Made by a program: the position numbers and the translations under genes. A stretch of 44,235 bases of DNA from a virus, in the IMG/VR virus record IMGVR_UViG_3300021961_000177, positions 1 to 44,235 of that record; one strand, 5' to 3'. The notes beneath the pieces were generated by a model that was not told where the DNA came from, ran no database searches, and saw nothing but the letters and a program-made list of their open reading frames with translations. Of this stretch, positions 11,015 through 44,235 are shown piece by piece (position 1 is the stretch's first letter; every line of letters starts with the position of its first letter).

Positions 11015-11040
11015 CCCCCGCATCGAGCGGGGGTTTTTTT
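11015..11040 (+). terminator. Strong rho-independent terminator of the early operon
   Basis: CCCCCGC (11015-11021) pairs with GCGGGGG (11027-11033) around ATCGA, followed by seven T to 11040. It faces the plus strand. The late-operon stop codon (TTA on plus, 11039-11041) is embedded in the T run, so the two convergent operons meet here with no spare bases. A second weak hairpin, GTTGCG/CGCAAC at 10990-11010, precedes it. Confidence 0.93.
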
Positions 11041-14000: not shown

Positions 14001-17000
14001 ACACCCCTAGAAGACTTGGTGCTAATACCAGCATCTACGGCGGAAACCAACTCTGTTAGAGCAGTGATCTGGTTGGGCGCAAAACCAAACAATTTACGAA
14101 CTAAGTCAACAAACTTACCGTAGGCACTACGAATTGAGTTAGCTGGTTTGTAGCCGTTTAAAAAGTTTTCAAACACCGGCTCGCTTAACGCATAAGCTAT
14201 AAACTCTTGGGGGTCGTTAAACATCGCCCCGTTAGCGCCCTCTACTACTTCTGCTAGTGCTTTGTATAAGAGTTTATTACCAGTCTGGATTGGGTCTAGG
14301 CTATCACTACGCAGGTCGGCAATATACATTTCAACAAACTTGCGCTTGGCTTCGTTCATCAACGCCGTTATGTCACTGTAAAAATCACGCTCTGCTTTAG
14401 TTATGGTAAGGCCGAGATCGGCAGCTTGTTTTATACCCCAAACTTTTTTGTCTAACGCTGCGTGTAAAGCCTCGTGCAATACGATTATGTTGTTGATACC
14501 TTGCGAGCGGTCTCCCCAACTAGCACCGCGTACGTACACTGTGACTTTTAGCTTGCCAGCGGCATCTTTCTCTATAGCCGTTATACCGACAGCGCTTGAG
14601 TCTTTTTCAAGGGCCTCGGGTAACTTATCGCCACGCTCAACAACAATAAACTTAGCATCGCCGACAGCACTAGAGAGACGCTTTGCGAGCAGCTTCATAA
14701 ACGGAGTGCCCGTCTTCGCAACGATACTGAGAGCACCTTTAACCGTAGTGGCGTTATTAAACTCGCCGTTAATAGTAGCTACCTGTCGGTTTTTACCTTC
14801 CGCTTCTTTTTTACCAAGGCTTCTAGCTTTACTAAGGAGAGTATGTGTTCGCCTCTCTGCCGCTGCTTGACGAGCCTCTTCCCTTGTTTCTTTAAAAACA
14901 CGCTCAGCTCTGCTGAACGCATCAGGGCTAATCAACGGGTTAGGTTTATCTCTACGACCAGTATTCTCATCAATGGAGTACAGAAGCTGTCCTAAGCGTC
15001 GGCGGTGGGCGCTATCAGGCATTGAGTTGTACGCAAAATACATTTGAGTTATTAACGCGGCTTCTTTTTCCTTTAGCGCGTTTATGCGTGCAGCTACTTT
15101 GGATCGGGCTTCTCTACCGAACACTTCTACCATAGTAGCAAACGTATCTCTTAGCCCGCCGTCGTCATCTCTATACAGTTTTTTAAACCGCTCTGTAAAC
15201 CTCTTAACGATAGCTGTGTCTCGAGTGTTATCGGCGATGGCCCGCTTACGTGCTTTCTCTTGTGCGGCACGCTCTGCTGTACCTTCTGCGGTAAGTGCGG
15301 GTCTACCACGACCTCTACGCTCAGCGCGTTGCCTTTCTGCTTCGGCAGCCGCCGCTTCGTATCTAGCTTGTACTTCAGGGCCAAGAGACTTAAGGATGTT
15401 TTCAATTGTCTGTGACGGTTTTGCGGCAGGTTCCCCGCCTACGTCGCCTTCACCTTCGTCTTCAAACAGATCACGCTGAGCCTTACTGGTTTTCTCTGTT
15501 ACTGGGCGTGCAGCTTCACGCCGACGCTGTTCTGCTTGCAGTGCGCTAATTTCGTCTTGGATAATCGCAGCTTCTGGCGTACCTTCACCAGCCGCATCCA
15601 GTTCGTCCATCCGACGTTCGATAGTGCGTGTAAGTTCCGTGTTGCTTAAATCGGTAGTAAGAGGTACTACCTTGCCAGCGGGCTTGCCACCGCTTGTTTC
15701 AATTGCTTGTAAAAGTTCAGTAGGTCTTTTGTTTGGGAATACAAACTCATCTGCACCGCCAGCCCCTTGTGCGGAGTTTGCACCAATTACTTCAGCGGGC
15801 AACGTTACTTGAGTTACTGCACCATATTTAGCAGCTTTAGCTGGATCAGAAGTCCACCATTGACCGTTTGCGTCATTTTCTGTGCTCTCACCACGGTACA
15901 AAGTTACTTGCTGTCCGGGTTTAATAGTTGCTAGTGTAGCTGGCTCCCCTGCTGTTTCAGGTTCCCCTGCTAGTTCACGTCCCGCAGTCTCTGTGTCTGT
16001 TTCGTAGTACAAATCTTCTACAGCTAACCGTGTGGCTTCTTCTTCGGAATAGCCTTCTGCTATGTACGCATCGTAAATAGTGCCGAACTGTTTACGCTTT
16101 TGGACACGATCTGTTTCTTCTTTGCGGACCTCTTCGTCTTCAGCAATTTGGAAAGAGACATTAGCTTCGGCCTGTGCCCGAGCGTCCGCTTCCTCGTACC
16201 CTAGCTTTAAGAGCCTGTCGGTTTCGGCTTCAACAGCAGCGGCCTGCTCTTCTGGCGTTGTCGGCACCGAAGTTGTCGGTATCAATTTATTTTTTAGTGC
16301 GTCGTACTCTGTTTGCTCTTCTTCCGTCAACTCTCTACCACGAGCCCGCTCAGAAACCATTGGTTTACCGGCTTCGTCATAGAGCTGTTCACCTTGTTCG
16401 TCTGTAAGGATTACTGGGTTACCAGTAATAATGTTTTCCAATTCAGCTAGTCTAGTACGCTCTTTGAACTCAGCTTCTGCACGGGCCATGTCGGCCCCAA
16501 GGATGTCAGCGTCTTCCATTGCGCGGGCAGTTTGCCGTGCTTGTCTAACCTCAAGGGCACCAGCACCAGCACCGAGAGGAGCACCTGCTCCAGCTTCCAA
16601 AACGCCAGAACTTACTACGCCTCGCATAGTAGGTACATCAAACCCTTCCCGCTGCAGCGCAATGTTTTGGGCTAGTTGTTCGAAACCACCTTGTGCGCCT
16701 TCACCGAGAGATTCAACAGCGGCAGTCCTAGCCGCTTGTCCCGGCATTGTCCGCGCAGCCATCGTTGTGATTTCTTCTCGCGCAGCTTCGGTCGCGGTTC
16801 TTTTTGCTGCTTCTTCGCCTACGGTTTTCTTTATCTGTGCAGCTACTCTGCCGCGAATAAACGATCTACCAAGACCCGTAATTTCTGCAAGTGCGTTAAT
16901 ACCACCACCGGCGGCAATTAAGTCTAAGTTTTCACCGGCGTATTCTTGGGCGGTTTGTGCTTTCGCCTCAATTTCTTTTGCCGACAGACCGCCTTTTTCC

Positions 17001-17671
17001 TCTAGAGCGCCCTTGACCGCATCGTATATTTCGCCTTTGATGAGGCCCACACCGGTACCAAGACCTACTGTACCAGCCGTAAGTCCAGCAGCTAGAGCGC
17101 CGCCACCTGTTGCAATAGTAAGCGCAGATGCAGCCAAAGCTGGCACGGCAGTACCAAGGGCTTGAGATACCAGATCTACAGGAGCTACGGTAAGAGCCTC
17201 AAGACCTGCAATAAGTTGATCGCCTATGCCTTTGTCTTTCGCGTCTTCCATGATACGACTGACTTCAGCCGCATCGCGTTTAGCTTGAGCACTTAAAAGA
17301 CCAGCTAAATGAGTATCCGCAGCTTGGAGAGCCTTTGCTGCATCACTACCAGCGCCGAACATATCGACACCAGCCTTACCAATAAGTAATGCACCACGCT
17401 GAAACTGCAGCGGCACGTCGAGCGCGGAACGCCAGAAGCTCTCATTGTCGGCTTGCTCCTGTGAAGGTAGCGGTTCAGCACCCGGTTGTGTTACTTGGGT
17501 AGGCTGGCTAGCAGGCTGTAAGTATTTATTGCGTATAGCTTCCTGCGTAGCCTCATTTGCATTGGCAAAGTCAGGGTCTTGTGGAGCCCACCTCTCAAAT
17601 ATCGCTGCTTTGGTAGCCTCGTTTGCATTTAAGAAGTCGGGGTCTCTTAGGATTGAGGCTAAATCCGCCAT
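11039..17671 (-). CDS. Giant polyvalent ejection protein with ADP-ribosyltransferase-like and zincin motifs
   Basis: This 2210-residue protein is the last gene of the late operon. Residues 1-52 hold two copies of a DPDF-x-NANEAT-x2-AI unit. Residues 160-215 are a Gly/Ala-rich hydrophobic stretch that could insert in membrane. Around 577-655 lies an R-S-E-type ADP-ribosyltransferase pattern: LYRGE (Arg593), WWTSDP (Ser608), ADEFVF (Glu642). HEALH at 1066-1070 with Glu1156 (PQEFIAYAL) further on forms a zincin signature. The C-terminal third is helical, with hydrophobic segments near 1860-1935. This fits the polyvalent proteins described for phages and conjugative elements: large proteins injected with the DNA. 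GAGGG precedes the start. Position after the two other ejection proteins supports virion packaging. Confidence 0.8.
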   Translation of the reverse strand: MADLASILRDPDFLNANEATKAAIFERWAPQDPDFANANEATQEAIRNKYLQPASQPTQVTQPGAEPLPSQEQADNESFWRSALDVPLQFQRGALLIGKAGVDMFGAGSDAAKALQAADTHLAGLLSAQAKRDAAEVSRIMEDAKDKGIGDQLIAGLEALTVAPVDLVSQALGTAVPALAASALTIATGGGALAAGLTAGTVGLGTGVGLIKGEIYDAVKGALEEKGGLSAKEIEAKAQTAQEYAGENLDLIAAGGGINALAEITGLGRSFIRGRVAAQIKKTVGEEAAKRTATEAAREEITTMAARTMPGQAARTAAVESLGEGAQGGFEQLAQNIALQREGFDVPTMRGVVSSGVLEAGAGAPLGAGAGALEVRQARQTARAMEDADILGADMARAEAEFKERTRLAELENIITGNPVILTDEQGEQLYDEAGKPMVSERARGRELTEEEQTEYDALKNKLIPTTSVPTTPEEQAAAVEAETDRLLKLGYEEADARAQAEANVSFQIAEDEEVRKEETDRVQKRKQFGTIYDAYIAEGYSEEEATRLAVEDLYYETDTETAGRELAGEPETAGEPATLATIKPGQQVTLYRGESTENDANGQWWTSDPAKAAKYGAVTQVTLPAEVIGANSAQGAGGADEFVFPNKRPTELLQAIETSGGKPAGKVVPLTTDLSNTELTRTIERRMDELDAAGEGTPEAAIIQDEISALQAEQRRREAARPVTEKTSKAQRDLFEDEGEGDVGGEPAAKPSQTIENILKSLGPEVQARYEAAAAEAERQRAERRGRGRPALTAEGTAERAAQEKARKRAIADNTRDTAIVKRFTERFKKLYRDDDGGLRDTFATMVEVFGREARSKVAARINALKEKEAALITQMYFAYNSMPDSAHRRRLGQLLYSIDENTGRRDKPNPLISPDAFSRAERVFKETREEARQAAAERRTHTLLSKARSLGKKEAEGKNRQVATINGEFNNATTVKGALSIVAKTGTPFMKLLAKRLSSAVGDAKFIVVERGDKLPEALEKDSSAVGITAIEKDAAGKLKVTVYVRGASWGDRSQGINNIIVLHEALHAALDKKVWGIKQAADLGLTITKAERDFYSDITALMNEAKRKFVEMYIADLRSDSLDPIQTGNKLLYKALAEVVEGANGAMFNDPQEFIAYALSEPVFENFLNGYKPANSIRSAYGKFVDLVRKLFGFAPNQITALTELVSAVDAGISTKSSRGVVEALQLSLMSPSAAKRGMKSKSDMLKLAKEQDRVAKGYEESDDPIKVNGSIEKSINLRSGKEAVEAVQTVYATGTTKAKRNLARVLTLDLLAEIAGRLGLKSVNEGAGVVRKMNSMADNILLGAQETIDNTFRTFQGRPKSMAAFTRLALQSTLLNIDPATDTSSPMLNKLYAALDEKGKQEYIRMRDYFQGMTQMYTRFLDDRVKNLGVDVSDQDKANVLEKIKAMYETGDKIYPFFPLKRFGNYWIRIGVGANRKFFTFESEFARDQAVRKFAKKRNMTVDEFLDQKEGTEQYVKIGKKSDELISELFSDKAAKTLRELFDAIDKMDTADPDAKAKLKDDVYQTYLATLPDQSIRRQFLHREGITGYSTDFLRSFVEAATHNAFQLSRIKYGPELRRAASAGKEAAGNDVGLQVLAEEFANRTDYNLNTFNESPEQKFLRQTVSFLNQSSFIYYLSAIASPMLQMFQLGITGFNTLGANYGFAKATAEISKLTKVWDQYSVFKKNADGSVTMTAPSLARSKAVQMNDRERNAMEKLLRHDVIRVTLAAEITELSKLPSKSLEGSFSQTAKGIVQIPGKLMQATEQLAREMLALTAYRLAYKKHGNHEAAVEEAAFHVADAMGNYAAYNRPPFMRGPLGGLMFQFMMFPVHMTGWFVKNFARSIPLLKTNKEGKMLAFKLWASSMASLWVVAGTAGLPFGLGTMMLGVLSQLFDEAKDDDDFPPEYKDMEFDFYVRKIWLPQQVGHIKINDVPLDMIIDYGPLSAMTGVDFSSRLSMNGMFIRENKSEATLEAEWQNALIDRMGPAVNMITSFVKGLDALRVGDVQKFGEKIAPAALRAPLYAEKYSRQGIVDWEGTVLTPADQVELGKLLAQAIGFRPLELTEQGYRTFTQRALEQAIQYEKNRIYTRLYKAYVADDMKEFDRILDEDVEKFNEKHEGFSIEEDDIDRSLEERLEQREIKQDTGGFNLKKNNAGLIIPLLREDR

Positions 17672-17683
17672 TTGTACCCTCGA

Positions 17684-20218
17684 TTACTTCAGGAATTTGT
17701 TGTTAGGGTCTACTTTACCACCAGCACCGCTAGTACTAGCACCGCTATCCCCTCTAGCTATACCCATTTGAGCCTCGAACAACCTAACTTGCTCTTCGTA
17801 CAGCCTTCTGGTTTCCCTCTCAGCCCACTTTGCTTTTTCCTCTTTAGACATACCCCTTGTTTCTTTATTACGCGGAGAATCTGCTTTATCCTGCATAGCT
17901 TTAGATATGTCACCAATAGACTTAAAAGTAACCGCTGGAGTAACTTGGCCCGGGGCTGTTCTGTAAGTAGCCGCTTTGGTTACTTCTTCGAGACTATCTC
18001 GCAGTCTACGTCCTTGGGCACGAACAGCCGGATCAGAGCTAGCCAACATGGTAGTAACACGAGCCTGCAGTGCTTCACGGCTTTCTGGTTTTGCAGCGTC
18101 TCGCGCAGCGGCTTGCTCTTGCTCGTACTGTGATAGCTTAGTCGCATGTTGACGCTCGGCGGTTTTCATAGAGATAGATGTAGCTGTGTTAACTGCATCC
18201 TTGGCATCTCCTATGCTCATCTCACCAAACTTGGTCTTCTTATTGGCAAGTAGCTTAGCCAAATCGTTTTGAGCTTTAGCCAGAGCAGCATCAGCATTAC
18301 GTTTATCTTTGGCGTTGGCAATTGTCTCGCCACGGCGCTGCTCCATGATGGTATCAATGGAGTCTTGCAGCTTCTCTTTAGCAGCATCAATACGCTCAAC
18401 AGTAGCGTCGTATGCTTTACCGCCCTTACCAACAGCTAAACCCAAATCACTCAGGAAGTTGCTAGTCGGCGAAGTAAGAAGCGTAGTGCTAACGTCACGG
18501 ATAAAGGACAGTTTCGCATCTTCCTTACGGCCCTTGATGCCCTCCAAACGCTCTTTAGCACGTTTTTCTTGGGCTGCGCCGTACTCACCAGCCGCTTTTA
18601 TGTCTGCTTGGCGTTGCGTTTCTGCATCTCGGATTGACTTTACAAGCGCCTGATTAGCAGCTTGTTCTTCCGCGAATCCTTGCTCTATCTGAGCTATGCC
18701 GGGAGCCATAGCCTCTTCCCGCATACGCATGTAGTCTTCAGCGGTGTACGGGCTAGTAAATGTAGGCGCAGTGCCTGCTGTATATTGTGGACGACCGTAG
18801 TCTACCCCCGGTGCTTTACCGTCTATTTCCGCTCTTTTCAAAGCGGCTTCATCCATTTCTTCTTGGGTAAGCGGTTTGTTATCCGACGGGTATCTTTTCT
18901 TTAATTTTGCGCGTTGTTCTTCAGTCAGCACAGTGCCGCTTTCTGGGACACCATCTTCATCAGTACCCTCTGCAAAACGCATAATCCCACCACCTGCAGC
19001 GGAGACCATATCTTCTGGCACGTCTAAGCCACCGAGACCCATCTCCATAAGAGCTTCTTGTGCTACGGTAGTTTGGGGTTGGGGCTGTTGACCGGCTTGC
19101 GCCATTTCAGCGGCTTTACGCAGTTGTGCGTTTTGTTGCAGCTTCTCTGCTACTTGGAGTTTGGCGAGCTGAGAAATATCAGCAAGGCCCATCAAGCCCT
19201 GCAGTTGTGGACTATCCATGCCGGGCTTGCTGAGTGCAGCGTCGCGCTCGACAGGGTTTAAGCCAGAGATACCACCACCTGCGGCATAACCGGGAACAGG
19301 GCCGCCTTCTGCAGCGCCAAAAAGTCTAGAACCGTAATACGCCGTACCGGCAAGACCAGCCATTTGAGACAACGGACTTGGGCCGGGTTGAGAATAAATA
19401 GATGTAGCAGTCTGACCAACTGGGATACCACGAATCATGTCAGCCATGAAGCCGAGCTGCTGATACGGATACTGTTGTTGACGCAGGAAGTCTTGGTAAC
19501 CAAGATCGAGCTTAGATTGCTCCATAGCACGACGCTGCTCGCCAACACCCATCTGAGCTTGAAGAATATCTTTCTCTTGGCCAAACTGCGTAGCCCCGAG
19601 TTGACCCAACACTTGACCGGCTTGGGTTGCTTGACCGGCACCACGAAGACCCAGATCAGCTTGAAATTGTTGAGCTTGACGCGCCTGCTCAAACGCAGAC
19701 TGTAGACCACGGCCTTGAATGTCGCCCAACTGTTGTTGCAGGTTACGGCCAGCTTCGGCCTCCATAATAGCTTGACGAGAGCCACCAAAAGCACCGGACT
19801 TAACTGCCTGCGATCCACGTTGAGTTCCGGCAATACCAGCCTGACGCATTGCTTCGCGCTGCTGAATATCAACAACGTTTTGCATATATGGAGACATATA
19901 CGCCTGCATAGAGCCGGGGTCTGTAGCCATCTGCCCGTACTGAGCGCCAGCGCCAAGAGAAGCTAAGCCTGCCGCACCAGTTACCCCAGTAGCCATCCCC
20001 ATTTGAGGCGCTACGTCCATACCCATTATTTTTTCTTGGGTCTGTGTTTGGACAGGATCAAACCCAGAGATGCGTTCGCCCTCATACGGTTTATAGTCTT
20101 CCCCCGTAAGAGCAGCCGTTTTAGCTAACGTGTCTTTAGCGTACGATCTCGCCCATTCCGGTAACTCTACTGTTTGTGTTTGGCTCGTTTGAGAAGGTTG
20201 TCCACCACCGCTACTCAT
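17684..20218 (-). CDS. Probable internal virion / DNA ejection protein, Gln/Ala-rich
   Basis: In this 844-residue protein, residues 1-280 are strongly Gln/Ala/Gly-rich and helical (for example YMSPYMQNVVDIQQREAMR and FGGSRQAIMEAEAGRN), ending in a QQQYPYQQLGFM segment. A Gly-rich motif GGPVPGYAAGGG follows near residue 305. Later parts are charged coiled-coil-like helices (AKERLEGIKGRKED, RIDAAKEKLQDSIDTIMEQ). The pattern matches ejection proteins of environmental podophages that I recall, which enter the cell ahead of DNA. The start overlaps the GNAT-like gene by ATGA with AGGGG ahead. The order ejection protein, small protein, ejection protein, giant protein recalls the T7 gp14-15-16 block. 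Confidence 0.75.
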   Translation of the reverse strand: MSSGGGQPSQTSQTQTVELPEWARSYAKDTLAKTAALTGEDYKPYEGERISGFDPVQTQTQEKIMGMDVAPQMGMATGVTGAAGLASLGAGAQYGQMATDPGSMQAYMSPYMQNVVDIQQREAMRQAGIAGTQRGSQAVKSGAFGGSRQAIMEAEAGRNLQQQLGDIQGRGLQSAFEQARQAQQFQADLGLRGAGQATQAGQVLGQLGATQFGQEKDILQAQMGVGEQRRAMEQSKLDLGYQDFLRQQQYPYQQLGFMADMIRGIPVGQTATSIYSQPGPSPLSQMAGLAGTAYYGSRLFGAAEGGPVPGYAAGGGISGLNPVERDAALSKPGMDSPQLQGLMGLADISQLAKLQVAEKLQQNAQLRKAAEMAQAGQQPQPQTTVAQEALMEMGLGGLDVPEDMVSAAGGGIMRFAEGTDEDGVPESGTVLTEEQRAKLKKRYPSDNKPLTQEEMDEAALKRAEIDGKAPGVDYGRPQYTAGTAPTFTSPYTAEDYMRMREEAMAPGIAQIEQGFAEEQAANQALVKSIRDAETQRQADIKAAGEYGAAQEKRAKERLEGIKGRKEDAKLSFIRDVSTTLLTSPTSNFLSDLGLAVGKGGKAYDATVERIDAAKEKLQDSIDTIMEQRRGETIANAKDKRNADAALAKAQNDLAKLLANKKTKFGEMSIGDAKDAVNTATSISMKTAERQHATKLSQYEQEQAAARDAAKPESREALQARVTTMLASSDPAVRAQGRRLRDSLEEVTKAATYRTAPGQVTPAVTFKSIGDISKAMQDKADSPRNKETRGMSKEEKAKWAERETRRLYEEQVRLFEAQMGIARGDSGASTSGAGGKVDPNNKFLK

Positions 20219-29345: not shown

Positions 29346-30182
29346 TTATGTTGGAATTTGGGTCCAACTAGGGGTCTGACTCGTATCAACCAGTCCCCAT
29401 ACGTTAGTGTATCCAATAACACCTAAGCCGTACACCCCCGTCGGATAGACATTAGCTGTACCAAATGCCGATGCCGTACCAAGAGCGGTTGTACCTACAA
29501 GCCCCGTCACTGCTATTAAACTAGAGCCGGTAGCCGTTGCATTTCCAAGAGCTGTTGTGCCAACAAGTCCGGTAACAGAAATAATTTGATCCGTAACAAG
29601 CGAAACCTGACCAAGCGCACTGGTAGCCGCAAGCCCAGCAGTGGGCACATTAGCATCGGCTGTAACTGTCGTGCTACCTACAGCACCTGTAGCGGCGAGG
29701 CCTGTTACAGAAAGAATCTGCTGCGTACTCAGGGATACTGTGCCTACTGCGCCCGTAGCGGCGAGGCCGGTTACGGATAGGATTTGGTCAGTTATGAGGG
29801 ATACTGTGCCTACTTCGCCAGTGGCTTCAACCCCGGTCTGAGCTAGTACTTGATCGGTACTAAGTGCAACAGTGCCTAATGTAGCGGTGGCTTCTTCGCC
29901 GGTTACGCTTAGATTATTGTTTGTTACAAGGCTAACGTCTCCCAACGTAGACGTACCGCTGACTCCGGTAACACCTGTATTTGCCGCTGCGTAAATAGAG
30001 ACGGTGCCTACTTGCCCTGTACCTTCAACCCCGGTCTGGGCCAGAATTTGATCCGTGACGACCGAAACAGTACCAACTTCGCCAGTGGCTTCGACCCCAG
30101 TAACAGCAACGAGCGCATTAGGCGACTCGATTATGGACGCTGCGAACGGGGCTGCGGCAAACGGGTACTGGGCGTAGGCCAT
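29346..30182 (-). CDS. Repeat protein, eleven 22-residue units, probable fibre shaft
   Basis: This is a 278-residue protein. After residue 23 it is made of about eleven consecutive units of 22 residues, each with the core TG-x-x-[AG]T-x-x-[VL]G and a following strand such as TVSLSTQQ. Units 6 and 7 are nearly identical. The periodic Gly and Val suit a beta-helix or beta-solenoid, as found in fibre shafts. The final unit degenerates to VYPTGVYGLGVIGYTN. It starts at a TAATG overlap with the S74 fibre gene, so the two are probably made in fixed ratio. Confidence 0.75.
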   Translation of the reverse strand: MAYAQYPFAAAPFAASIIESPNALVAVTGVEATGEVGTVSVVTDQILAQTGVEGTGQVGTVSIYAAANTGVTGVSGTSTLGDVSLVTNNNLSVTGEEATATLGTVALSTDQVLAQTGVEATGEVGTVSLITDQILSVTGLAATGAVGTVSLSTQQILSVTGLAATGAVGSTTVTADANVPTAGLAATSALGQVSLVTDQIISVTGLVGTTALGNATATGSSLIAVTGLVGTTALGTASAFGTANVYPTGVYGLGVIGYTNVWGLVDTSQTPSWTQIPT

Positions 30183-33288: not shown

Positions 33289-33939
33289 TCAAGTTACTGG
33301 GACTCGCACCTGACCAGAACGGTACGAGTCTTGCCTTTCAAGCCCATCTCCAAGCCGTTTAGCTAGTTGAAGTGCCTCGTTGTACTTAGCATTGTATAGC
33401 TGCAGTAAGTCGGTTTCACCTTTCATGAAGGTGTAAGCCTCGACCAAAGAGCCATACAACAGTACGGAATCAAAGTTATCACCAAGCCACGATGTACCAG
33501 CGGTAACAATCGAGTTTGGATAGTAATAGTAGTGCATCTCGACCGTGTAGTTAGCATCGGGCGTTGGGCCGAGAATAAAAGTCAATTCGTCTGGGTCACC
33601 AGACTGCGGACCAAAAATGGCGTAGTACTTGGGTAAACCTGTATCTGTTGGGGTCGGGTACGCTTGACGAATAAAGTTGGTATCCTTGTTCAACAAATAC
33701 TCATACGCACCGCTGCCATCTACAATCGCCAAAGAATGACTTGATAGAAAATCATTCGGGCAATTTAAATATTTGTTCCCGATGGTCGCTGTACCGGTTA
33801 CGTTTTTACGTAGAGACGGGAACTGAATTGAGTTGTAAATACGCTGCTCGGCTTGCTTAACAAACGTAGCAAGTTCTGTCGCACTGAAAGTATTTTCAGT
33901 GTAATCCTGTATAGCAGTCGTCAACTCAGAGTAGTTCAT
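33289..33939 (-). CDS. Tail adaptor / neck protein
   Basis: This is a 216-residue protein. A helical N-terminus (MNYSELTTAIQDYTENT, LATFVKQAEQRIYN) precedes a strand-rich core (KYLNCPNDFLSSHSLAIVD, EYLLNKDTNFIRQAYP, GLPKYYAIFGPQ) and a helical end (LYNAKYNEALQLAKRLGD). I recognise this order from phage adaptor proteins that join head to tail in environmental podophages. It follows the zinc-ribbon gene through a TAATG overlap with GGAG at a good distance. Ring-forming adaptor function is inferred. Confidence 0.72.
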   Translation of the reverse strand: MNYSELTTAIQDYTENTFSATELATFVKQAEQRIYNSIQFPSLRKNVTGTATIGNKYLNCPNDFLSSHSLAIVDGSGAYEYLLNKDTNFIRQAYPTPTDTGLPKYYAIFGPQSGDPDELTFILGPTPDANYTVEMHYYYYPNSIVTAGTSWLGDNFDSVLLYGSLVEAYTFMKGETDLLQLYNAKYNEALQLAKRLGDGLERQDSYRSGQVRVPVT

Positions 33940-34151
33940 TACATCACTCCGCCGCTAGCCCACGGCACGGAAGTAGCCCAAATCTTGACGCTCTGCTTTG
34001 ATTGCCAAGGCTCGCCGCAATTGGTACAAACGCCAGTAGATTCTTCAGCAGCACTAACAGGGTCTTGGCAATGAGCGCACACAACTTCAATCTCGTGTGT
34101 CGGCTCAATAACGCCGTTGTCTAGCTGTCTAGATTCAATGAGCTTCCTCAT
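33939..34151 (-). CDS. Small zinc-ribbon virion-region protein
   Basis: This is a 70-residue protein with two cysteine pairs: CAHC near residue 25 and CTNCG near residue 42. It is therefore a short zinc ribbon with a Trp-rich tail (WATSVPWASGG). It overlaps the 53-residue gene upstream by ATGA and the adaptor downstream by one base. Its position among adaptor genes suggests a small structural or assembly zinc protein. No more specific family is recognised. Confidence 0.65.
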   Translation of the reverse strand: MRKLIESRQLDNGVIEPTHEIEVVCAHCQDPVSAAEESTGVCTNCGEPWQSKQSVKIWATSVPWASGGVM

Positions 34152-34309
34152 GCCATTGGTCCTCGGGCCATCGTGCCCTTGGTAGCAGCACCGTTACCAC
34201 GAGTCTTGACACCAGAAGTTTTAACCCCGGTTTCAGGATACCCGGCAGTCTTAGGAACTGGAACGGGCTTGGGTTGTTGATATTTATTTAAGCAAGCGGT
34301 TTTATTCAT
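34148..34309 (-). CDS. 53-residue basic protein with GAATKGT-type C-terminal tag
   Basis: This is a short gene that length filters easily miss. ATG 34309-34307 has AAGGAG at 34320-34315, five bases ahead, and the stop at 34150-34148 overlaps the next ATG by ATGA. The product is Lys/Pro/Gly-rich (QQPKPVPVPKTAGYP) and ends KTRGNGAATKGTMARGPMA. I recall this ending from other phage small proteins, where it forms a recurring C-terminal motif. The ribosome binding site, spacing and coupling all support real translation. Function is unknown; a virion-associated basic peptide is the simplest guess. Confidence 0.75.
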   Translation of the reverse strand: MNKTACLNKYQQPKPVPVPKTAGYPETGVKTSGVKTRGNGAATKGTMARGPMA

Positions 34310-34318
34310 ACTAACTCC

Positions 34319-34654
34319 TTACGATGTGGTCACCGTAACAGTGCCAACTGTACCTGAAGATTGCACTCCATACAAGGGGCCCCAGCCCCATTCTATGTCT
34401 CTAGACGCCGTCGGCGCTCCTGTATATTCAAGCGAGCGATCTGGGCGTGGATTCATAATAGCCTGCGGATCGACCACAGGGTATTTACCTACTTTGTACT
34501 GTGGATGATCGGCTTCCCAACACTCATTACAAACTTGGAGGTTGGTTGGAGCCTCGTTAATCACTAACTCTTTAAGTGTCTTACGCTTATAGCGGAACCC
34601 ACACCGGTCGCACTCGGCGATGGTGTGTTTACCTTGGGCGTATTTAGAAGACAT
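34319..34654 (-). CDS. Zinc-ribbon virion-region protein
   Basis: This is a 111-residue protein. CDRCGFRYKRKTLKEL and later CNECW give a four-Cys zinc site (Cys15, Cys18, Cys42, Cys45). A Pro/Tyr-rich tail (QYKVGKYPVVDPQAIMNPRP) and a Thr/Val end follow. This is the second zinc ribbon within 700 bases, with a different spacing from the one at 33939. It follows the main adaptor gene and is probably a structural or assembly accessory. A weak AGGGT precedes the start. Confidence 0.68.
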   Translation of the reverse strand: MSSKYAQGKHTIAECDRCGFRYKRKTLKELVINEAPTNLQVCNECWEADHPQYKVGKYPVVDPQAIMNPRPDRSLEYTGAPTASRDIEWGWGPLYGVQSSGTVGTVTVTTS

Positions 34655-34660
34655 CAGAGT

Positions 34661-35353
34661 TTACCCTATGGTCATGTACCGTGGTACAAGTTGGAACGTG
34701 GCTTTTTCTCTATCTTCAGTAGCAGCAAGCTCCCATGCTTCGTCATACTGTTGTTTGAGTAAGCTAATACGCTCAAGTCCGTTTGGTAACTTCAACGCCA
34801 AGTAATACGCCAGACCTGCTGTCAAGCAGTTCAAGAAACGGAATGGTACATCCATCGTATTCACGCCGTTACCAGCGTCTTGGATGCGGCGCAAACGCCA
34901 ATAAACCAGCGTATAAGTCTGAGCGGTATCGGGGATAGGCCACAAGTTAATTGACGGGGCGCTCGTCTGACGGTCGATGTATATCTGCACCGGACGACCA
35001 GTAGTCAGTTTGTTTGGGATGCTAGCGTAGGTAGAAACACTAACACGTGAAACACTCAAATCAGCTTGATTTGCCGAAGACCCGGCATCCGTGCGAATAA
35101 CATGCTCCAAAAGATCAACCGTATCAGCCGGTAAGGTGTACGTGCCAGTACCGGCAGTAAGTACTTGAGAACCTTGCTCAACTGTCCAAAGGTTAATACC
35201 CCGGTTAGACCAGTCGGTAAACATCAAATTAAGAGACCTACGAGCAGTACGCAAATCGTACCCAGAACGCATCTCGGAACCAGCACGCTCGAACGCCTCC
35301 TCGACCAACTCGGTCAAGTCCATGTTAAATGCTGAGGTGCCTGATGTAGCCAT
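34661..35353 (-). CDS. Head-tail adaptor (podovirus gp4/gp11-like)
   Basis: This is a 230-residue protein. The N-terminal part DLTELVEEAFERAGSEMRSG leads to the helix TARRSLNLMFTDWSNRGIN and the strand GTYTLPADTVDLLEHV. This is the typical adaptor pattern of P22 gp4 and T7 gp11 relatives, which form the ring under the portal. The C-terminal helix (PNGLERISLLKQQYDEAWE) is also usual. The start overlaps the upstream small gene by one base (TAATG). It supports the short-tailed morphology. Confidence 0.8.
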   Translation of the reverse strand: MATSGTSAFNMDLTELVEEAFERAGSEMRSGYDLRTARRSLNLMFTDWSNRGINLWTVEQGSQVLTAGTGTYTLPADTVDLLEHVIRTDAGSSANQADLSVSRVSVSTYASIPNKLTTGRPVQIYIDRQTSAPSINLWPIPDTAQTYTLVYWRLRRIQDAGNGVNTMDVPFRFLNCLTAGLAYYLALKLPNGLERISLLKQQYDEAWELAATEDREKATFQLVPRYMTIG

Positions 35354-35598
35354 TATTTGCCCCTATTCCTGTATGGTGCCACCTTTTTGGCTATTGTTCT
35401 GGGTTGTTTGACGAATTGTTGCCCAGTAGCTTTGCCTTTGCGTTTTGCACGTGTTGTAGCAGCGTACTCCGCAGGGCTAAGAGCTTTGATAGCAGACTCT
35501 GGCAAGTATCTTTCGCCTGTTTCAGAAGATTTTTTACCACTCTTGGTTCTCCATTTCTGGGCCGTCCAAGCCTTTAAAGACTGCTGCGGTTTTTTCAC
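35353..35598 (-). CDS. Small basic protein with AEYAATTRAKRKG motif
   Basis: This is an 81-residue, strongly basic protein. SLKAWTAQKWRTKSGKKSS, RYLPESAIKALSPAEYAAT and TRAKRKGKATGQQFVKQP follow each other. I recognise this order from a family of short phage proteins in cyanophages and other aquatic viruses, all without known function; I do not give a DUF number because I cannot confirm it. The start is GTG 35598, overlapping the previous gene by GTGA. It belongs to the run of basic proteins between capsid and adaptor. Confidence 0.68.
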   Translation of the reverse strand: MKKPQQSLKAWTAQKWRTKSGKKSSETGERYLPESAIKALSPAEYAATTRAKRKGKATGQQFVKQPRTIAKKVAPYRNRGK

Positions 35599-35966
35599 TT
35601 CTTCATCTTCCGCAGTGTCTGGGCTAGACGGGCACGTTGACCCATCTTACCCGGAGCTTTAGCTGCCTTGGCGAGTTTTTTAGCTGGAATAGTCTCACCA
35701 GCCTTAACACCCATAGACTTACGCAAAGCACCGGGCTTCTTAATTGCGCTTTGAATCCACTTACCACTCTTGGCAGTGACTTCTTTTTTAGAAGACATTT
35801 TTTCAAACATAGACAGCGCATCCGCAAGGTCAGAGCTTCTACTCTTCGGGGCCTTCATACCACCGGGTAGGCTTAACTTAGCTCCAGAAGACTTCCTAGT
35901 CGGTATAACTTCGCTAGGATCAATATCTTTTCGGACTTTACTGCGGTAATCGTATTTTTCAGCCAC
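35595..35966 (-). CDS. Basic protein with KKPGALRKSMGVKAGE motif
   Basis: This is a 123-residue basic protein. The C-terminal half has KWIQSAIKKPGALRKSMGV then GETIPAKKLAKAAKAPGK, a pattern I recall from many phage hypothetical proteins near structural genes. The N-terminal half is Ser/Lys-rich and probably disordered. I start it at GTG 35966 (MAEKYDYRSK), which overlaps the previous stop by eight bases; GTG 35975 and TTG 36002 are alternatives. It likely binds DNA or protein through its charge. Confidence 0.62.
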   Translation of the reverse strand: MAEKYDYRSKVRKDIDPSEVIPTRKSSGAKLSLPGGMKAPKSRSSDLADALSMFEKMSSKKEVTAKSGKWIQSAIKKPGALRKSMGVKAGETIPAKKLAKAAKAPGKMGQRARLAQTLRKMKK

Positions 35967-36342
35967 GATAGCCACCGCCTTTCTCTTTGTACTTCTTAGC
36001 AAGCAACTGCGCCTTGCGAGCTGACCATTGACCAGCAGCGGTGCCTTGAACAGCTTGCGCCTTAATAGACTCGAACAGTTGCTTACGCATACTGGGTTTG
36101 GTGTAATTGCCAGCGGCGTTTACTTTTGACTTGACCTTACCACCCTTTTTAGCTTCTACGACTTTGTCGTTCTTGTCTTTAGGGGGGTAATAGGGCATCT
36201 TTTGCTGCCCTTTGGGTGGGACATAACGCCATTCATCATCGCGGTGGCCTTCGGGGCCATTTTTTTCGGTAGTCTTTACCCGGCCTTTATTGCTAAAGGC
36301 AACAGGCTTCATAGCCCGACCCATACCGCGACAATTCATCAT
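35959..36342 (-). CDS. Basic protein with QWSARKAQLLAKKYKEKGGGY motif
   Basis: This is a 127-residue Lys/Gly-rich protein. NAAGNYTKPSMRKQLFESIK, AGQWSARKAQLLAKKY and a final GGGYRG form a conserved-looking C-terminal module seen in other phage proteins as I recall. The N-terminal part is Pro/Lys-rich (VPPKGQQKMPYYPPKDKND). I choose ATG 36342 with AAGGA upstream; a longer frame from 36390 would overlap the preceding gene by 47 bases. Function unknown. Confidence 0.62.
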   Translation of the reverse strand: MMNCRGMGRAMKPVAFSNKGRVKTTEKNGPEGHRDDEWRYVPPKGQQKMPYYPPKDKNDKVVEAKKGGKVKSKVNAAGNYTKPSMRKQLFESIKAQAVQGTAAGQWSARKAQLLAKKYKEKGGGYRG

Positions 36343-36343
36343 A

Positions 36344-36814
36344 TCAGCACATCCTTCCTTTGGTCTTACCACGCTGAGCAATACCATCACGGCCTTTCTT
36401 GACCATGCCGCCAGCTTTCATGCCAGAACCGTACTTCTCTTCCAGCGCCTTGGCGGTCATGGCTTTGGCGCGCTTTATGTCATCGTCACTCGGGGTTCGC
36501 ATGGTAACGTTTGGTGGGGCTGATGCCGCTTTTGCTTTTGCTGTTTCTGACCGCGCACGGCTAATGTCAGCGTCACTCGGGGTTCGCATGCGAACGTTTG
36601 ACGGGGCTGATTTCTTACGAGGTGTCAACCCACGCTCTTTGTTCAAGAACTCATTCAAAGACATACCCGAGGCTTCTAATTCCTCTTTGGTGACGATTGG
36701 GTTGCCGCGCTTGTCGAGCTTACGACCTTTAGGGTTTATCTTTTTCATGCGGGCGGCAGCCATCGGATTGGCTGTAACCGCAGGAGCCTCAATCTCTGTA
36801 TCAGGCATATCCAT
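36344..36814 (-). CDS. Basic protein with 29-residue tandem repeat and GKTKGRMC tag
   Basis: This is a 156-residue protein. A Lys-rich start (KKINPKGRKLDKRGNP) is followed by ELEASGMSLNEFLNKERGL. Then come two 29-residue repeats, each with NV-x-MRTPSD-x-DI and an Ala/Lys helix. The end, KKGRDGIAQRGKTKGRMC, is a short motif I recall from C-termini of unrelated phage proteins. The start shares its AAGGAG leader with the next gene through a 45-base duplication. Function unknown; disorder and charge suggest a packaged or assembly protein. Confidence 0.65.
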   Translation of the reverse strand: MDMPDTEIEAPAVTANPMAAARMKKINPKGRKLDKRGNPIVTKEELEASGMSLNEFLNKERGLTPRKKSAPSNVRMRTPSDADISRARSETAKAKAASAPPNVTMRTPSDDDIKRAKAMTAKALEEKYGSGMKAGGMVKKGRDGIAQRGKTKGRMC

Positions 36815-36852
36815 AACATAACTCCTTAGACCATTTTGCAGGCGCGGCCACC
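36808..36852. repeat. 45-bp direct repeat, copy 1
   Basis: These 45 bases are identical to 37041-37085. The repeat spans the last codons of one gene (ending ACKMV), its stop, the AAGGAG site and the first two codons of the next gene. It marks the edges of a tandem duplication of a 233-base unit. Confidence 0.95.
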
Positions 36853-37047
36853 ACGGGCCATACCATAACCTTTGACTGAACCGCCGCCCTTCTTAGCAAG
36901 ACTATTTGCGTCACGCCTAGCTTCTTCTTTTGCTTTTGCTTGGATTTCTTTGTCTTTTTTTGGCATCATTTCATCTGAACGCCTACGCATTTCTTTATTG
37001 AGTTCTGTTTCCATCTTGTTCCGTGCAGCGTATGCTTTATTATCCAT
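36826..37047 (-). CDS. Small basic protein, GYGMARGGRACKMV tag (paralogue 1)
   Basis: This is a 73-residue protein. A charged helix (ETELNKEMRRRSDEMMPKKD, QAKAKEEARRDANSLAKK) precedes the Gly-rich end KGGGSVKGYGMARGGRACKMV at its last 21 positions, shared almost exactly with the neighbour at 37059. AAGGAG lies in the repeated leader. The N-terminal helix differs from that of the neighbour, so duplication kept only the tag and translation signals. Function unknown. Confidence 0.68.
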   Translation of the reverse strand: MDNKAYAARNKMETELNKEMRRRSDEMMPKKDKEIQAKAKEEARRDANSLAKKGGGSVKGYGMARGGRACKMV

Positions 37048-37085
37048 AACATAACTCCTTAGACCATTTTGCAGGCGCGGCCACC
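37041..37085. repeat. 45-bp direct repeat, copy 2
   Basis: Second copy of the repeat at 36808-36852, 233 bases apart, with the same stop, ribosome binding site and start arrangement. Outside the repeat the match continues only in the Gly-rich tag codons. Confidence 0.95.
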
Positions 37086-37334
37086 GCGAGCCAAGCCATA
37101 ACCACGGACAGAGCCACCGCCCTTCATCTTTTTGGGCATACCGCCTTTTTTGTAGCCAACCATGCCGCCTTTGTTATTTAACTTACCAGCTTTGCGGTCG
37201 GCTTCGTAAGCGCCAGATTCCATATCGTTTGCGTCGTCACGAAGTTTGTTGGCGCGTTCTAGCGCCATAGGGCCACCTGCGGCTTCAATTTCATCCGCTT
37301 TCTTACGCATTTGGTTGGGGGTCATGTCACTCAT
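37059..37334 (-). CDS. Small basic protein, GYGLARGGRACKMV tag (paralogue 2)
   Basis: This is a 91-residue protein. A helical opening (NQMRKKADEIEAAGGPMALE, RANKLRDDANDMESGAYEAD) leads to GGMVGYKKGGMPKKMKGGG and the tag GYGLARGGRACKMV. It shares the tag with the next gene downstream. The GG-x-V-GY-x2-GG element recurs in ejection proteins of this phage. AAGGA precedes ATG 37334. It resembles basic phage proteins I recall next to capsid genes, of unknown role. Confidence 0.68.
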   Translation of the reverse strand: MSDMTPNQMRKKADEIEAAGGPMALERANKLRDDANDMESGAYEADRKAGKLNNKGGMVGYKKGGMPKKMKGGGSVRGYGLARGGRACKMV

Positions 37335-37343
37335 GGTTTTTCC

Positions 37344-37592
37344 TTAGTTTGTAGCGTTTTTTTGCTCGCGGATAAACGTATCCAGCTTTGTGTCTAACCT
37401 ATCAAGCCTGTCGATAACGCGGTTGATGTCTGTGTGGAGTTCGGAGCGGGTTACATACTTCTCAGCGCCCTCTTCACGAGTCTTGCTAAGTAAGATAGCA
37501 ACGCGTTTAACTTCATCTTGGGATGTTTTAACCCACAGAAGAATTAAAGCAACGGCGAGGGATAACCCTCCGTTCCACAACATCATGTCCAT
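37344..37592 (-). CDS. Single-span membrane protein with coiled coil
   Basis: This is an 82-residue protein. One membrane span lies at about residues 6-22 (NGGLSLAVALILLWV). A charged helix (DEVKRVAILLSKTREEG) and a coiled-coil end (HTDINRVIDRLDRLDTKLDT) follow. I use ATG 37592; a GTG 15 bases upstream is possible but overlaps the previous stop. Its place among basic proteins is odd for a membrane protein. Candidates are a spanin-like component, a holin-like protein or a virion membrane anchor; nothing decides. Confidence 0.6.
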   Translation of the reverse strand: MDMMLWNGGLSLAVALILLWVKTSQDEVKRVAILLSKTREEGAEKYVTRSELHTDINRVIDRLDRLDTKLDTFIREQKNATN

Positions 37593-37594
37593 TT

Positions 37595-37864
37595 TTAGCA
37601 GTTCCACGCTCTAAGGCTCTTGTTTATACGGCTGTTCGGGTCTTTGGCTGTCTTTGAACTCGTCAACTTGGACTTCATCCCAGACATTCTGGCGCAGAAG
37701 GACTTTCGCCGTGCTGCGTCTTTCTCTGTTTTTGGGCTGGGAGCGGGGGCCTTCAAACCCGGTTTCCCGGGGTTCGCCTTGTTGTAGGAGGCTCGCCCTT
37801 TGGCGTTTAGACCGCCTTTGGGGTTCTTGCCCTCTTTCCTCGTCCATGCTGCTGACTTAGCCAT
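37595..37864 (-). CDS. Conserved basic phage protein (KEGKNPKGGLNAKGRAS family)
   Basis: This is an 89-residue protein. AWTRKEGKNPKGGLNAKGRA, later RRKSFCARMSGMKSKLTSSK and a C-terminal DPNSRINKSLRAWNC make a highly recognisable phage family, possibly DUF6321, found in cyanophages and related viruses. Function is unknown. It is Lys/Ser/Gly-rich with two Cys near the ends. It starts two bases after the previous stop with only a weak ribosome site, so it is probably translated by coupling. Confidence 0.75.
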   Translation of the reverse strand: MAKSAAWTRKEGKNPKGGLNAKGRASYNKANPGKPGLKAPAPSPKTEKDAARRKSFCARMSGMKSKLTSSKTAKDPNSRINKSLRAWNC

Positions 37865-38566: not shown

Positions 38567-39478
38567 TCAGGTTGAACCTGAAGTACCCCACATACCAAGC
38601 GGATCGCTCCAGCCGAAGCTGTAACGCTCACGCGCCTTGTAGCGCACGTTGCCGGTATCGAAGTCGCCGTCCATACCTGTAGACATAGGGCTACGGGTAA
38701 AGTGCTTCATGCCGTTAGGAACGTCGGTCTTAATGAACCATGCGTTCGTGTCGGTCAAGAAGTGGTTGACGGTGTAACCCTCGGGTACAGCACCCATTGA
38801 CTTGATAGCGTTCAAGTCGTTGTCGGCGGTAGCCACGCGCAAGTCGGTGTCAAGAATACGCTTGGCAACGAACATCAACGCTGGGGGAACGATCAACTTA
38901 CGAGGCTTAGCAGCGATCAACAGACCACGCTCGTCCGTCCAAGCAGCGATTTGAATGATTGCGGCTTCCAAAGAAGTCTCGTTCAAATCCACTTGAGCAG
39001 CGGGAGTGTTAGAGTTAACGCCACCACCAACCAATGGGTGAGAAGTGCTGAACAAAGCAACGTTGTCGCCACCCTTATAAGAGGCAGAGAAACCGTTGTT
39101 CAAAACAGCAGCAGCTTTAACCTGCTTGGTGTAAGCCATAGCACGAGCCAGAGCCTTGGTGTAACGAGCAGACAAGCTGTCGTACAAGTTATCTTCAACC
39201 GCTTCTTCAGTGATTGAGAAACCCATAGCAATGGTTTCGTGGTTGTAACGAGTAGTCCAAGCCTCTTGTGCATTGTCATAAGCAATGGCGGAGCCTTCAG
39301 CTTTCACTGGGGCAGCACCGAAGCCAGACAGCTTGGTTTCCTCTTCAAATGAGCGCTCAGAAGTCTCGCTTTCGTAGATTTCTTTGTGCTCTTCGCCGTA
39401 CTTTTGATACTCCAGACCGAACAGTGCGTTCAAGCCGGGGAGCAGCTCTTTAAGTAGTTGACTGCGTGAAATAGCCAT
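38567..39478 (-). CDS. Major capsid protein, Mu gpT-like
   Basis: This is a 303-residue protein. RYNHETIAMGFSITEEAVED and later KALARAMAYTKQVKAAAVLN, then VALFSTSHPLVGG, are the usual signature of gpT-type HK97-fold capsid proteins. The last third has APEGYTVNHFLTDTNAWFI-like strands and a RSPMSTGMDGDFDTGNVRYK end. AAGGAG precedes the start. It follows the decoration-like gene and is followed by a terminator. Length is normal for an HK97-fold shell protein without long insertions. Confidence 0.9.
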   Translation of the reverse strand: MAISRSQLLKELLPGLNALFGLEYQKYGEEHKEIYESETSERSFEEETKLSGFGAAPVKAEGSAIAYDNAQEAWTTRYNHETIAMGFSITEEAVEDNLYDSLSARYTKALARAMAYTKQVKAAAVLNNGFSASYKGGDNVALFSTSHPLVGGGVNSNTPAAQVDLNETSLEAAIIQIAAWTDERGLLIAAKPRKLIVPPALMFVAKRILDTDLRVATADNDLNAIKSMGAVPEGYTVNHFLTDTNAWFIKTDVPNGMKHFTRSPMSTGMDGDFDTGNVRYKARERYSFGWSDPLGMWGTSGST

Positions 39479-42174: not shown

Positions 42175-44235
42175 TTATTTTCTCGGTTGCTGACGAGGCT
42201 GAGACATCTGAGCACGCTCTTTCGCAATCTGAGCGCCCATCTTCAACCCCTCGATTTGATCTCTAGACTTCAAGTTAGCTCGGTCCGAAGCCGCTTTAGC
42301 ACCAACCTGCATCGCAGCAATACGCTCTTGTGTCTGCAGACGTTGCTTCTCGATAAGAAGCTGGTCAGCTTTAGCTGCTGCGTCGGTCGCAAGTTTCTTC
42401 TCTTCGAGCTCCATCTTCTTCATCTTGAGCTGCAACTCTTGCATCTGCATCTGGAGTATTGGGTCTTGCATCTGTTGTTGAGCCTGTTGTTGTTGAGCTT
42501 CTGCTTGATCGCGTTGGAGAAGTCTTGCTGATGCCTTGGCTGCGAGCTGAGCGACTTGCGCTGCCACCTCTGAGTCCATCGCCTTGTTCTGATCTTCAGA
42601 CGGCATGGGAAGCCCAAGCTGTTCTTCGATCTGTTTGCGATACTCGAACGCCACGTGCTCGTTGACGTGCGCCATCATAGAGGCTTGAATCTGCTGAGCC
42701 ATCGGGTTCTGACCAACGATCTGCATAATCTTCGGGTCTTGCATCGCTGCCATGTGTACGGCAATGTGGGCCTGATGGTCTTGCTCAATAAACGCCTTGA
42801 CAGGTTTGCCAGTAAGGATGTTCTGGTTCTCCTGCACGGGATCGACCGGGGTCTGATCGTCCTCAATCGGCACCAACTTATCAGCGTTCTTAACGCCAAG
42901 CACCTCTATCATCTGACGGTGTAATAAGGGCAAGTTATACAACTGTGGTGCTGCTTGAGCCAACTGCATCACGGCCTGATACTGAACAACTTTCTGCGCC
43001 ATCGTTGACGCATTGGGGTCGCTCACAGGGATGACATCAGTCACATCGTAGTCAACGCCTTTGGCTTTACGCCCGCCAGTCTCAGGCTTGTAGTCGTAGT
43101 CATCGTCGGTGTAATCACGAATGACACCCTTTAACAACTTAAACTCTTGACGCATAGCGTAGTGCAAGCGAGCCTGCACAGCGCCCATCACTTTCAACAT
43201 ACGCTCAAGGATGGCAAGCGTTGTACCCACAGGAGCGTTAGCGCTCATATCAGAGACGTTCAAATCTCCAGCAGAGGCAAACGCACGACCTTCTTGAACA
43301 ATGTTTTGGAACAGAGCAAACAAAACTTGGCTCGGCTCTTTGTATGGCAGGTTAAGGATGTTGTCACGGATACTGCCGCTAGGCACATCCACATCACGCC
43401 ACTCACCGGGAGCAATGGGTGTGTCATCACCCTTGATACGCAAGCCTCGAGACTTCAACCCACCGGGCAAGTTAGACAACGTGCCAGCGTCCACCAACTG
43501 ACGCATAATCATCGTTGAAGACTTGGCGTACCCACCGATCAAGTGGATGAGGCCATAGCCATAGAACCCAAACCCGGGGATGTATTGGTAGTGCACAAAG
43601 TGTTGACGCTTGACCTTGAAGTCATCGTCCTCACGCCAATTGCGACGGATAGATAGGATGACCCCAGTGCCCTTCTCAATAGTCACCACATAGGGCAGCG
43701 CAATGCCCGTAGGTTTACCCTTATCATCCTTATCCTCGTGGCCCACCAAGTCCAACTCAACGTGCATCTCAAGCATACGGAAGCGGCTGTCGCTTGTTGC
43801 AGAAAACCCTTGCTCTTTAGCTTTCTGCTTCTCTACATCATCAAGGTCACTGCTAGGCTCGCCTAAGTCAACGTCGCTATAAAAGCCTGCGGCCTGCAAC
43901 TTAAGAACTTCGTTCTTGGTCTTACGCATCACGTGCGTGACGCGCTCGGCGTTATCTAAACTAGACGCCCCATAAGGCGCTACGATGTCCTCGGCGGGAA
44001 CAAACATAGCAACCTGACGACCCTTGTTTGGATCGTAGTAAATCTTCTTGAAAGCGGAACCAGAAATAGGTAGACTCCACAACATGCGTTCATGTTCTGG
44101 GCGATATTCGGGCATGCCTTCTGTCAGCTCGTAGTTCATATCATCACGAACACGTTCTGCGGCGTCTTCTTTTTCAGGGGTTATTGCGCCCAAAATTTGG
44201 GTCTTAACCGGGCCGGAGGCGGGGAACGTCTCCAT
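42175..44235 (-). CDS. Portal protein, N-terminus outside window
   Basis: This is a 686-residue fragment of the dodecameric portal through which DNA enters the head. The first visible Met is at the window edge, and family members usually have about a hundred further residues, so it is probably truncated. RVRDDMNYELTEGMPEYRPE, SGSAFKKIYYDPNKGRQVAM and VPAEDIVAPYGASSLDNAER are the classic portal clip and stem context. The C-terminus (about 545-686) is a Gln-rich coiled coil (AEAQQQQAQQQMQDP, LQLKMKKMELEEKKL) suited to the barrel. It starts the visible late operon; the terminase should lie further upstream. Confidence 0.92.
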   Translation of the reverse strand: METFPASGPVKTQILGAITPEKEDAAERVRDDMNYELTEGMPEYRPEHERMLWSLPISGSAFKKIYYDPNKGRQVAMFVPAEDIVAPYGASSLDNAERVTHVMRKTKNEVLKLQAAGFYSDVDLGEPSSDLDDVEKQKAKEQGFSATSDSRFRMLEMHVELDLVGHEDKDDKGKPTGIALPYVVTIEKGTGVILSIRRNWREDDDFKVKRQHFVHYQYIPGFGFYGYGLIHLIGGYAKSSTMIMRQLVDAGTLSNLPGGLKSRGLRIKGDDTPIAPGEWRDVDVPSGSIRDNILNLPYKEPSQVLFALFQNIVQEGRAFASAGDLNVSDMSANAPVGTTLAILERMLKVMGAVQARLHYAMRQEFKLLKGVIRDYTDDDYDYKPETGGRKAKGVDYDVTDVIPVSDPNASTMAQKVVQYQAVMQLAQAAPQLYNLPLLHRQMIEVLGVKNADKLVPIEDDQTPVDPVQENQNILTGKPVKAFIEQDHQAHIAVHMAAMQDPKIMQIVGQNPMAQQIQASMMAHVNEHVAFEYRKQIEEQLGLPMPSEDQNKAMDSEVAAQVAQLAAKASARLLQRDQAEAQQQQAQQQMQDPILQMQMQELQLKMKKMELEEKKLATDAAAKADQLLIEKQRLQTQERIAAMQVGAKAASDRANLKSRDQIEGLKMGAQIAKERAQMSQPRQQPRK

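Follow-up and report, generated by a model that had tools for sequence, protein, structure and literature searches.

Probable docking peptides at the C-termini of phage head-block proteins

The virus record IMGVR_UViG_3300021961_000177, analysed over its whole length of 44,235 bases (hereafter the window), represents a podovirus-like phage. Four of eight small basic proteins from its head-gene block carry short C-terminal peptides (i.e. tags 1, 2 and 3) that recur, together with a fourth type (tag4), on proteins of a large set of related short-tailed phages from aquatic habitats. The tag is a selected C-terminal peptide, is borne by unrelated and fast-changing bodies (i.e. the remainder of each protein), is strictly located among head genes and is alternately fused to and missing from one domain family, DUF6321. 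It is probably an exchangeable docking signal to a common head partner and a virion-incorporation tag.

The eight genes had been grouped in an earlier note, made from the sequence of the window, as a cassette of basic, disordered proteins between the capsid and adaptor genes whose exchangeable end motifs suggested a shared destination. This observation was partly confirmed and its interpretation partly supported. All eight open reading frames (ORFs; at 34148, 35353, 35595, 35959, 36344, 36826, 37059 and 37595) were present on the minus strand, and their products were basic (isoelectric points, pI, of 9.8-11.0) and largely disordered (11-21% order-promoting residues). The end motifs proved to be tags for 37059, 36826, 36344 and 34148, as listed here, but not for 35353, 35595, 35959 and 37595, which belong to protein families; GGGYRG, one of the proposed tags, is a conserved family end (phrog_17747, E 5e-27).

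37059..37334, minus strand: 91-aa disordered basic protein with tag3 (GGGSVRGYGLARGGRACKMV); the tag recurs on other bodies (loci L318, L321, L322, L324 and L325)
37062..37121, minus strand: tag3 peptide, copy 1
36826..37047, minus strand: 73-aa disordered basic protein with tag3 (GGGSVKGYGMARGGRACKMV)
36829..36888, minus strand: tag3 peptide, copy 2; 83% identical to the first copy at the nucleotide level, including synonymous differences
36344..36814, minus strand: 156-aa disordered basic protein with tag1 (GRDGIAQRGKTKGRMC); C-terminus RDGIAQRGKTKGRMC, GKTKGRMC
36347..36400, minus strand: tag1 peptide, within which the following gene (35959-36390, as called) begins
34148..34309, minus strand: 53-aa protein with tag2 (KTSGVKTRGNGAATKGTMARGPMA; also GAATKGTMARGPMA and RGNGAATKGTMARGPMA), flanked by the genes of the 111-aa protein and the second connector

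Both tag3 proteins finish in ARGGRACKMV, as RGYGxARGGRACKMV or KGYGxARGGRACKMV, and this pair was the sole strong C-terminal match between window proteins (score of 102; 13 for the next pair). The surrounding block runs on the minus strand from the portal gene (42175-44235) through GroES-like and scaffold-like genes and two small head-block genes (40111 and 39492) to the major capsid protein (MCP) gene, followed by two small cement-like genes, the reported cassette, the first adaptor, the 111-aa gene, the 53-aa tagged gene and the second connector. The proposed location between capsid and adaptors was incorrect for 34148, which is instead flanked by the two connector-like genes, past both the first adaptor and the 111-aa gene. 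The bordering genes are as follows.

38567..39478, minus strand: MCP (phrog_371, Mu gpT-like), bounding the tag1 interval on the left
34661..35353, minus strand: first adaptor/connector-like protein, bounding the tag1 interval on the right
34319-34654, minus strand: 111-aa protein
33289-33939, minus strand: second connector protein

The capsid protein of Pag-Yong1, a Planktothrix phage, was 75% identical to the window MCP, whilst the identities for pelagiphages HTVC023P and HTVC027P were 63-64%.

Distribution of tags among head genes of related phages

To map tag1 across IMG/VR without reference to capsid genes, DNA encoding GKT[KR]G[KR]MV (i.e. the GKTKGRMV type) directly before a stop codon was searched for. 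At least 117 loci were detected, whilst a control pattern made by shuffling these codons had no match in IMG/VR. Among the matches listed, there were 138 tagged ORFs, of which 131 were in the capsid-adaptor interval, three were outside it and four lacked usable neighbours; placement refers to the expected position, as only one border was visible in some loci. Enrichment near capsid genes, whose absence the earlier note had named as evidence against its proposal, was thus observed for 131 of 134 placeable ORFs. Across the 10,405 ORFs of the window and 10 near-complete genomes (62-67 kb), tag1 was confined to the stretch from the DUF6321 position to the adaptor. Each genome had exactly one tag2, with the 111-aa gene on one side of it and the second connector gene on the other.

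The other motifs were also found mainly at protein ends, and GKTKGRMC and GAATKG...GPMA are widespread in related phages. In a search without a stop anchor, RGxGAATKG invariably ended 6-8 residues short of the stop codon (102 of 102 ORFs). For tag4, a sister-phage variant of the form RGxGAAxRGxKFxGVF, the motif RGxGAAxRGxKF was 3-4 residues from the stop codon in each of the 107 ORFs. The core motif was within 14 residues of the C-terminus for 422 of 444 occurrences, in loci that were partly picked for tags. Tag3 was scarcer (15 matches and 10 ORFs, on several bodies). A tblastn search of annotated phages with a 28-aa tag peptide gave no match, probably because queries that are short and repetitive are filtered out. 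Among named phages, HTVC023P encodes two tag4 proteins with C-termini RGVGAAIRGHKFIGVK and RGGGAAVRGMGFKGVF, and Pag-Yong1 encodes one tag1-like protein (UMO75986.1). The core motif was absent from the 15-21 kb examined of Alcaligenes phage QDWS535, phage 023Pt_psg01 and ct2G2228, which have related MCPs.

In related phages, tag4 genes mostly neighbour the portal gene, and in 36 loci they can be seen to separate it from GroES; tag2 lies between two connector genes. These positions would suit an alternative in which the tag docks disordered proteins at the portal vertex, the connector or the shell exterior as plugs, spacers or decoration. We consider this unlikely as most tag1 genes adjoin capsid, cement and DUF6321 genes and the disordered, unrelated bodies differ from familiar connector and decoration proteins; gene order itself does not decide the partner.

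An origin of the tags in prophages or hosts was rejected, as only 13 matches were obtained from 84,980 genomes, with the real tags being on contigs of metagenome-assembled genomes that resembled stray phage DNA and the others being chance-like. Two further observations concern tag architecture. In L107, L125, L130, L131, L300 and other loci, tag1 is extended C-terminally by sequences of the MITMKxGGxAC or MCGGGMxKGK type, a possible second tag layer. In phage DSL-LC04 (L006, 12016-12243), a single protein combines RGMGCATRGG near its N-terminus with GGGMMKGYKMGGSACK at its end, i.e. tag2-like and tag3-like sequences.

Diversity and turnover of the tagged bodies

A set of 288 non-redundant tag1 proteins was gathered, and 262 bodies fell into 106 clusters by phmmer and 121 by blastp. 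Almost none of the 106 tagged representatives were recognized by Pfam or PHROGs. Order-promoting residues made up 15% of the bodies, whilst Cys (0.1%) and Trp (0.2%) were rare. Within single genomes, none of 51 pairs of bodies were homologous (E 1e-2), indicating that the tagged genes are not tandem duplicates. Between genomes with 85-90% capsid identity, 2.2% of tag1 bodies had a homologue in the partner genome as compared to 61.8% of tag2 bodies, percentages that are descriptive because the loci were uncorrected for relatedness. Tag2 bodies serve as a control, being also short and disordered but encoded once per genome at a constant position; the far higher turnover of tag1 indicates that its genes are replaced and not just diverging. 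The exchangeability proposed for the tags was thereby upheld: bodies are unrelated, turnover is rapid and the same domain exists with and without a tag. A shared destination of the tagged proteins may reasonably be inferred.

A membrane-anchor function for the bodies was rejected, as a strong hydrophobic segment was present in <1%. A recurring N-terminal motif of the MKRKVKRYxxGG type was observed on 19 tag1 bodies.

The tags are basic and Gly-rich, as are RGG-like sequences, and their neighbours in the window are basic, so that the tag could be a nucleic-acid-binding tail that condenses DNA or forms condensates without a specific protein partner. This explanation is improbable given that residues other than charged ones are fixed (i.e. 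G-13, G-8, T-6 and G-4), the last residues are hydrophobic, the motif is at the exact C-terminus and the tag1 bodies are on average only weakly basic.

Selection on the encoded peptide

Codon usage was examined for 207 tag1 genes. Residues G-13, G-8, K-7, T-6 and G-4 (numbered from the C-terminus) were almost fixed; the collecting pattern itself fixes GKTxGxM, with G-13, R-16 and D-14 falling outside this pattern. Synonymous codons were mixed at nearly all of the conserved positions, and this saturation of synonymous sites indicates that the peptide is the target of selection. The Gly codon at -4 alone favoured GGA or GGG, which is probably due to the ribosome site of the next gene. This bias resembles an overlapping Shine-Dalgarno sequence and, in the window, tag1 overlaps the next gene as called, as would be expected if a DNA-level feature (i.e. 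a ribosome site or a recombination or packaging sequence) rather than a peptide signal had been conserved. Such a cause, or a recent gene duplication, is very hard to reconcile with saturated synonymous positions over the tag, amino acids that are fixed outside any ribosome site and the absence of homology in the 51 pairs of bodies, and both are largely refuted.

Tags within a genome were more alike than expected, with a difference of 0.269 as compared to 0.350 after permutation (a value reached in none of 2000 permutations), whilst 53% of their synonymous codons differed. Like tags with unlike synonymous codons are more consistent with each phage having one partner than with a recent copying event.

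At the ends of most tags, basic residues are followed by a hydrophobic or small one, as in some of the C-motifs recognized by ClpX, and the tags could act as degradation or processing signals that limit the lifetime of assembly proteins. This seems highly improbable, since ~20 residues are conserved upstream of the last few, the tags are confined to head-gene intervals and there is no separate protease among the head genes examined. Recognition by an assembly protease, as had been suggested, is not supported: no separate prohead protease was found among the genes from portal to connector, i.e. around portal, scaffold and capsid, in the window, which does not extend to the terminase side of the genome, and the tag reaches the stop codon. 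The window MCP matches protease-fusion families over their capsid part.

Fusion of the tag to DUF6321

One cassette gene of the window encodes an untagged member of a family that carries tag1 in relatives.

37595..37864, minus strand: 89-aa DUF6321 (PF19846) protein, untagged in the window

A profile search matched residues 12-87 of this protein to positions 1-72 of the 72-position PF19846 profile (E 2e-22; 80.1 bits against a cut-off of 28.5), a whole-domain match that establishes membership. DUF6321 was detected in 516 of 50,697 phage records, chiefly those of T4-like cyanophages, where the genes are found by terminase and neck genes; in T7-like phages they adjoin the capsid gene. Among the relatives of the window, tag1 directly follows the terminal Cys (WNC/WKC) in 19 of 97 DUF6321 proteins, and at least eight changes between tagged and untagged states were observed on a capsid tree of 80 loci.

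Virion association has been reported for this family. The S-CREM2 protein gp137, placed in DUF6321 from its C-terminal sequence, was detected in virions by mass spectrometry with four unique peptides (Table 3 of PMC10665884), and S-SCSM1 gp029 (DUF6321) is annotated as a virion protein of a phage for which 45 virion proteins were detected by mass spectrometry (PMC9602691). The fusion links the tag to a particle-borne family, and does so only through relatives. PDB sequence searches with the DUF6321 protein and with the window MCP gave no match. AlphaFold2 modelling of a tagged DUF6321 protein gave a mean predicted local distance difference test (pLDDT) score of 65, falling below 50 over the tag, and Foldseek found no PDB match below E 7.

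A proposed docking mechanism

In the proposed explanation, a C-terminal short linear docking peptide would consist of a core, R-[GA]-x-G-x-A-x-[KR]-G, and a lineage-specific end. The phage would fuse this peptide to exchangeable, mostly disordered bodies encoded within the head-gene block, and the peptide would bind a single head-module partner (i.e. the capsid inner face, the scaffold or the portal/connector) during procapsid assembly. Any body bearing the tag could thereby enter the particle and exit with the DNA. A docking role of the tag, towards a partner shared by the tagged proteins, is likely, whilst the chances that docking leads to incorporation in the head are about equal either way. 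As a whole, docking combined with virion loading of swappable bodies is our best explanation and may be right or wrong with similar probability. The common partner, incorporation, delivery and the roles of the bodies are what we infer from the patterns described above. More speculatively, and somewhat doubtfully, there may be a C-terminal cargo code in which one conserved docking peptide, with lineage-specific variants at three head-gene hotspots, makes virion cargo of rapidly exchanged disordered proteins, which the phage could swap to suit different hosts or defences. The kinship of tags 1-4 as versions of one peptide is suggested by the short core and by weak profile scores.

Several results count against the proposed docking and loading. 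A profile comparison of tag1 with tag2 gave an hhalign probability of 72%, and the relation of tag3 was weaker. AlphaFold2 produced no confident structure for the tags, and a tag4 protein was almost structureless (pLDDT of 64). The tag is missing from the two obvious head cargo proteins predicted in the window, namely the DarB-like product of 11039-17671 and the DNA ejection protein encoded at 17684-20218, indicating that the tag is not a general entry route. The mass-spectrometry support concerns untagged DUF6321 proteins of T4-like phages and no tagged protein. Finally, the T4 internal protein IPI is folded whereas the tagged bodies are disordered.

Phage head-internal proteins are hard to spot as they share no common fold. 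If the proposal is correct, the tag would assign hundreds of unannotated aquatic phage genes to one process. It would also point to candidates for injected proteins that act against the host and would add a new peptide by which proteins could be loaded into phage heads.

Untagged neighbouring genes

The remaining cassette genes encode untagged basic families and a membrane protein, which need not be part of the tag system.

35959..36390, minus strand: basic protein of phrog_17747, ending in GGGYRG; start uncertain (GTG, overlaps upstream gene)
35595..36002, minus strand: basic protein resembling phrog_20603, with the C-terminal KWIQ...KPGALRK...LRKMKK family; start uncertain (TTG, overlaps upstream gene)
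35353..35598, minus strand: basic protein of phrog_14910 (E 9e-35); close to the phrog_17747 gene in several marine phages
37344..37607, minus strand: small protein with a hydrophobic N-terminal segment, resembling phrog_7885; neutral (pI 6.6) and untagged

The membrane protein (37344), which the earlier note had thought might belong to the cassette, is probably outside the tag system. The phrog_14910 and phrog_17747 genes are close together in unrelated marine phages (Lederberg, HTVC104P and HMO-2011), often by terminase or lysis genes, and encode a conserved pair of basic proteins.

Elsewhere on the minus strand, 11039-17671 encodes a protein of 2210 aa that matches DarB-like antirestriction proteins over its C-terminal third (phrog_10089, E 1e-54), and 17684-20218 encodes one of 844 aa that matches a family of DNA ejection proteins at its N-terminus (phrog_4287). 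A 278-aa protein (29346-30182, minus strand) contains repeats of type TGVEGTGEVGTVS. The 111-aa protein (34319-34654, minus strand) ends in a stretch similar to these repeats, and its CRP-902 relative has a long array.

Comparison with known systems

The internal proteins of T4 enter the head by means of the capsid-targeting sequence (CTS), for which a part in the uptake of various proteins has been suggested (PMC9026906). As with the tags, the CTS of IPI, IPII, IPIII and Alt is one short terminal peptide on unrelated, fast-changing, small basic proteins, but it is N-terminal and 10-19 residues long, attaches to the core and is cleaved off by the gp21 protease (PMC9026906). The window tags differ in being C-terminal, of another sequence, in podovirus-like phages, on disordered bodies and uncleaved as far as known. 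A peptide shared by unrelated bodies was found here (262 tag1 bodies in 106 clusters) and an N-terminal position was not; given this difference in position, the tag is described as probably acting like a CTS and is not classed as one.

The Dar proteins of P1 (i.e. DarA, Hdf, DarB, Ddr and Ulx) are also head-internal accessory proteins, some of which are injected (PMC12810830), and the window encodes a DarB-like protein. They differ in that no shared exchangeable C-terminal peptide was found described for them (PMC12810830) and in that the DarB-like protein of the window is untagged. DUF6321 proteins of T4-like and T7-like cyanophages and pelagiphages, to which 37595 belongs, are often encoded in head, neck or terminase blocks and include cyanophage virion proteins; the domain occurs with or without tag1 in relatives of the window, whereas no tagged version was present among the cyanophage proteins examined. 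In P22-type scaffolding proteins, a basic C-terminal segment can bind coat protein within the procapsid. Phage scaffolds such as that of P22 are, however, single essential proteins, whereas the window has a separate scaffold-like gene and the tag is common to many variable proteins. The literature search retrieved no paper on these tags and none naming DUF6321.

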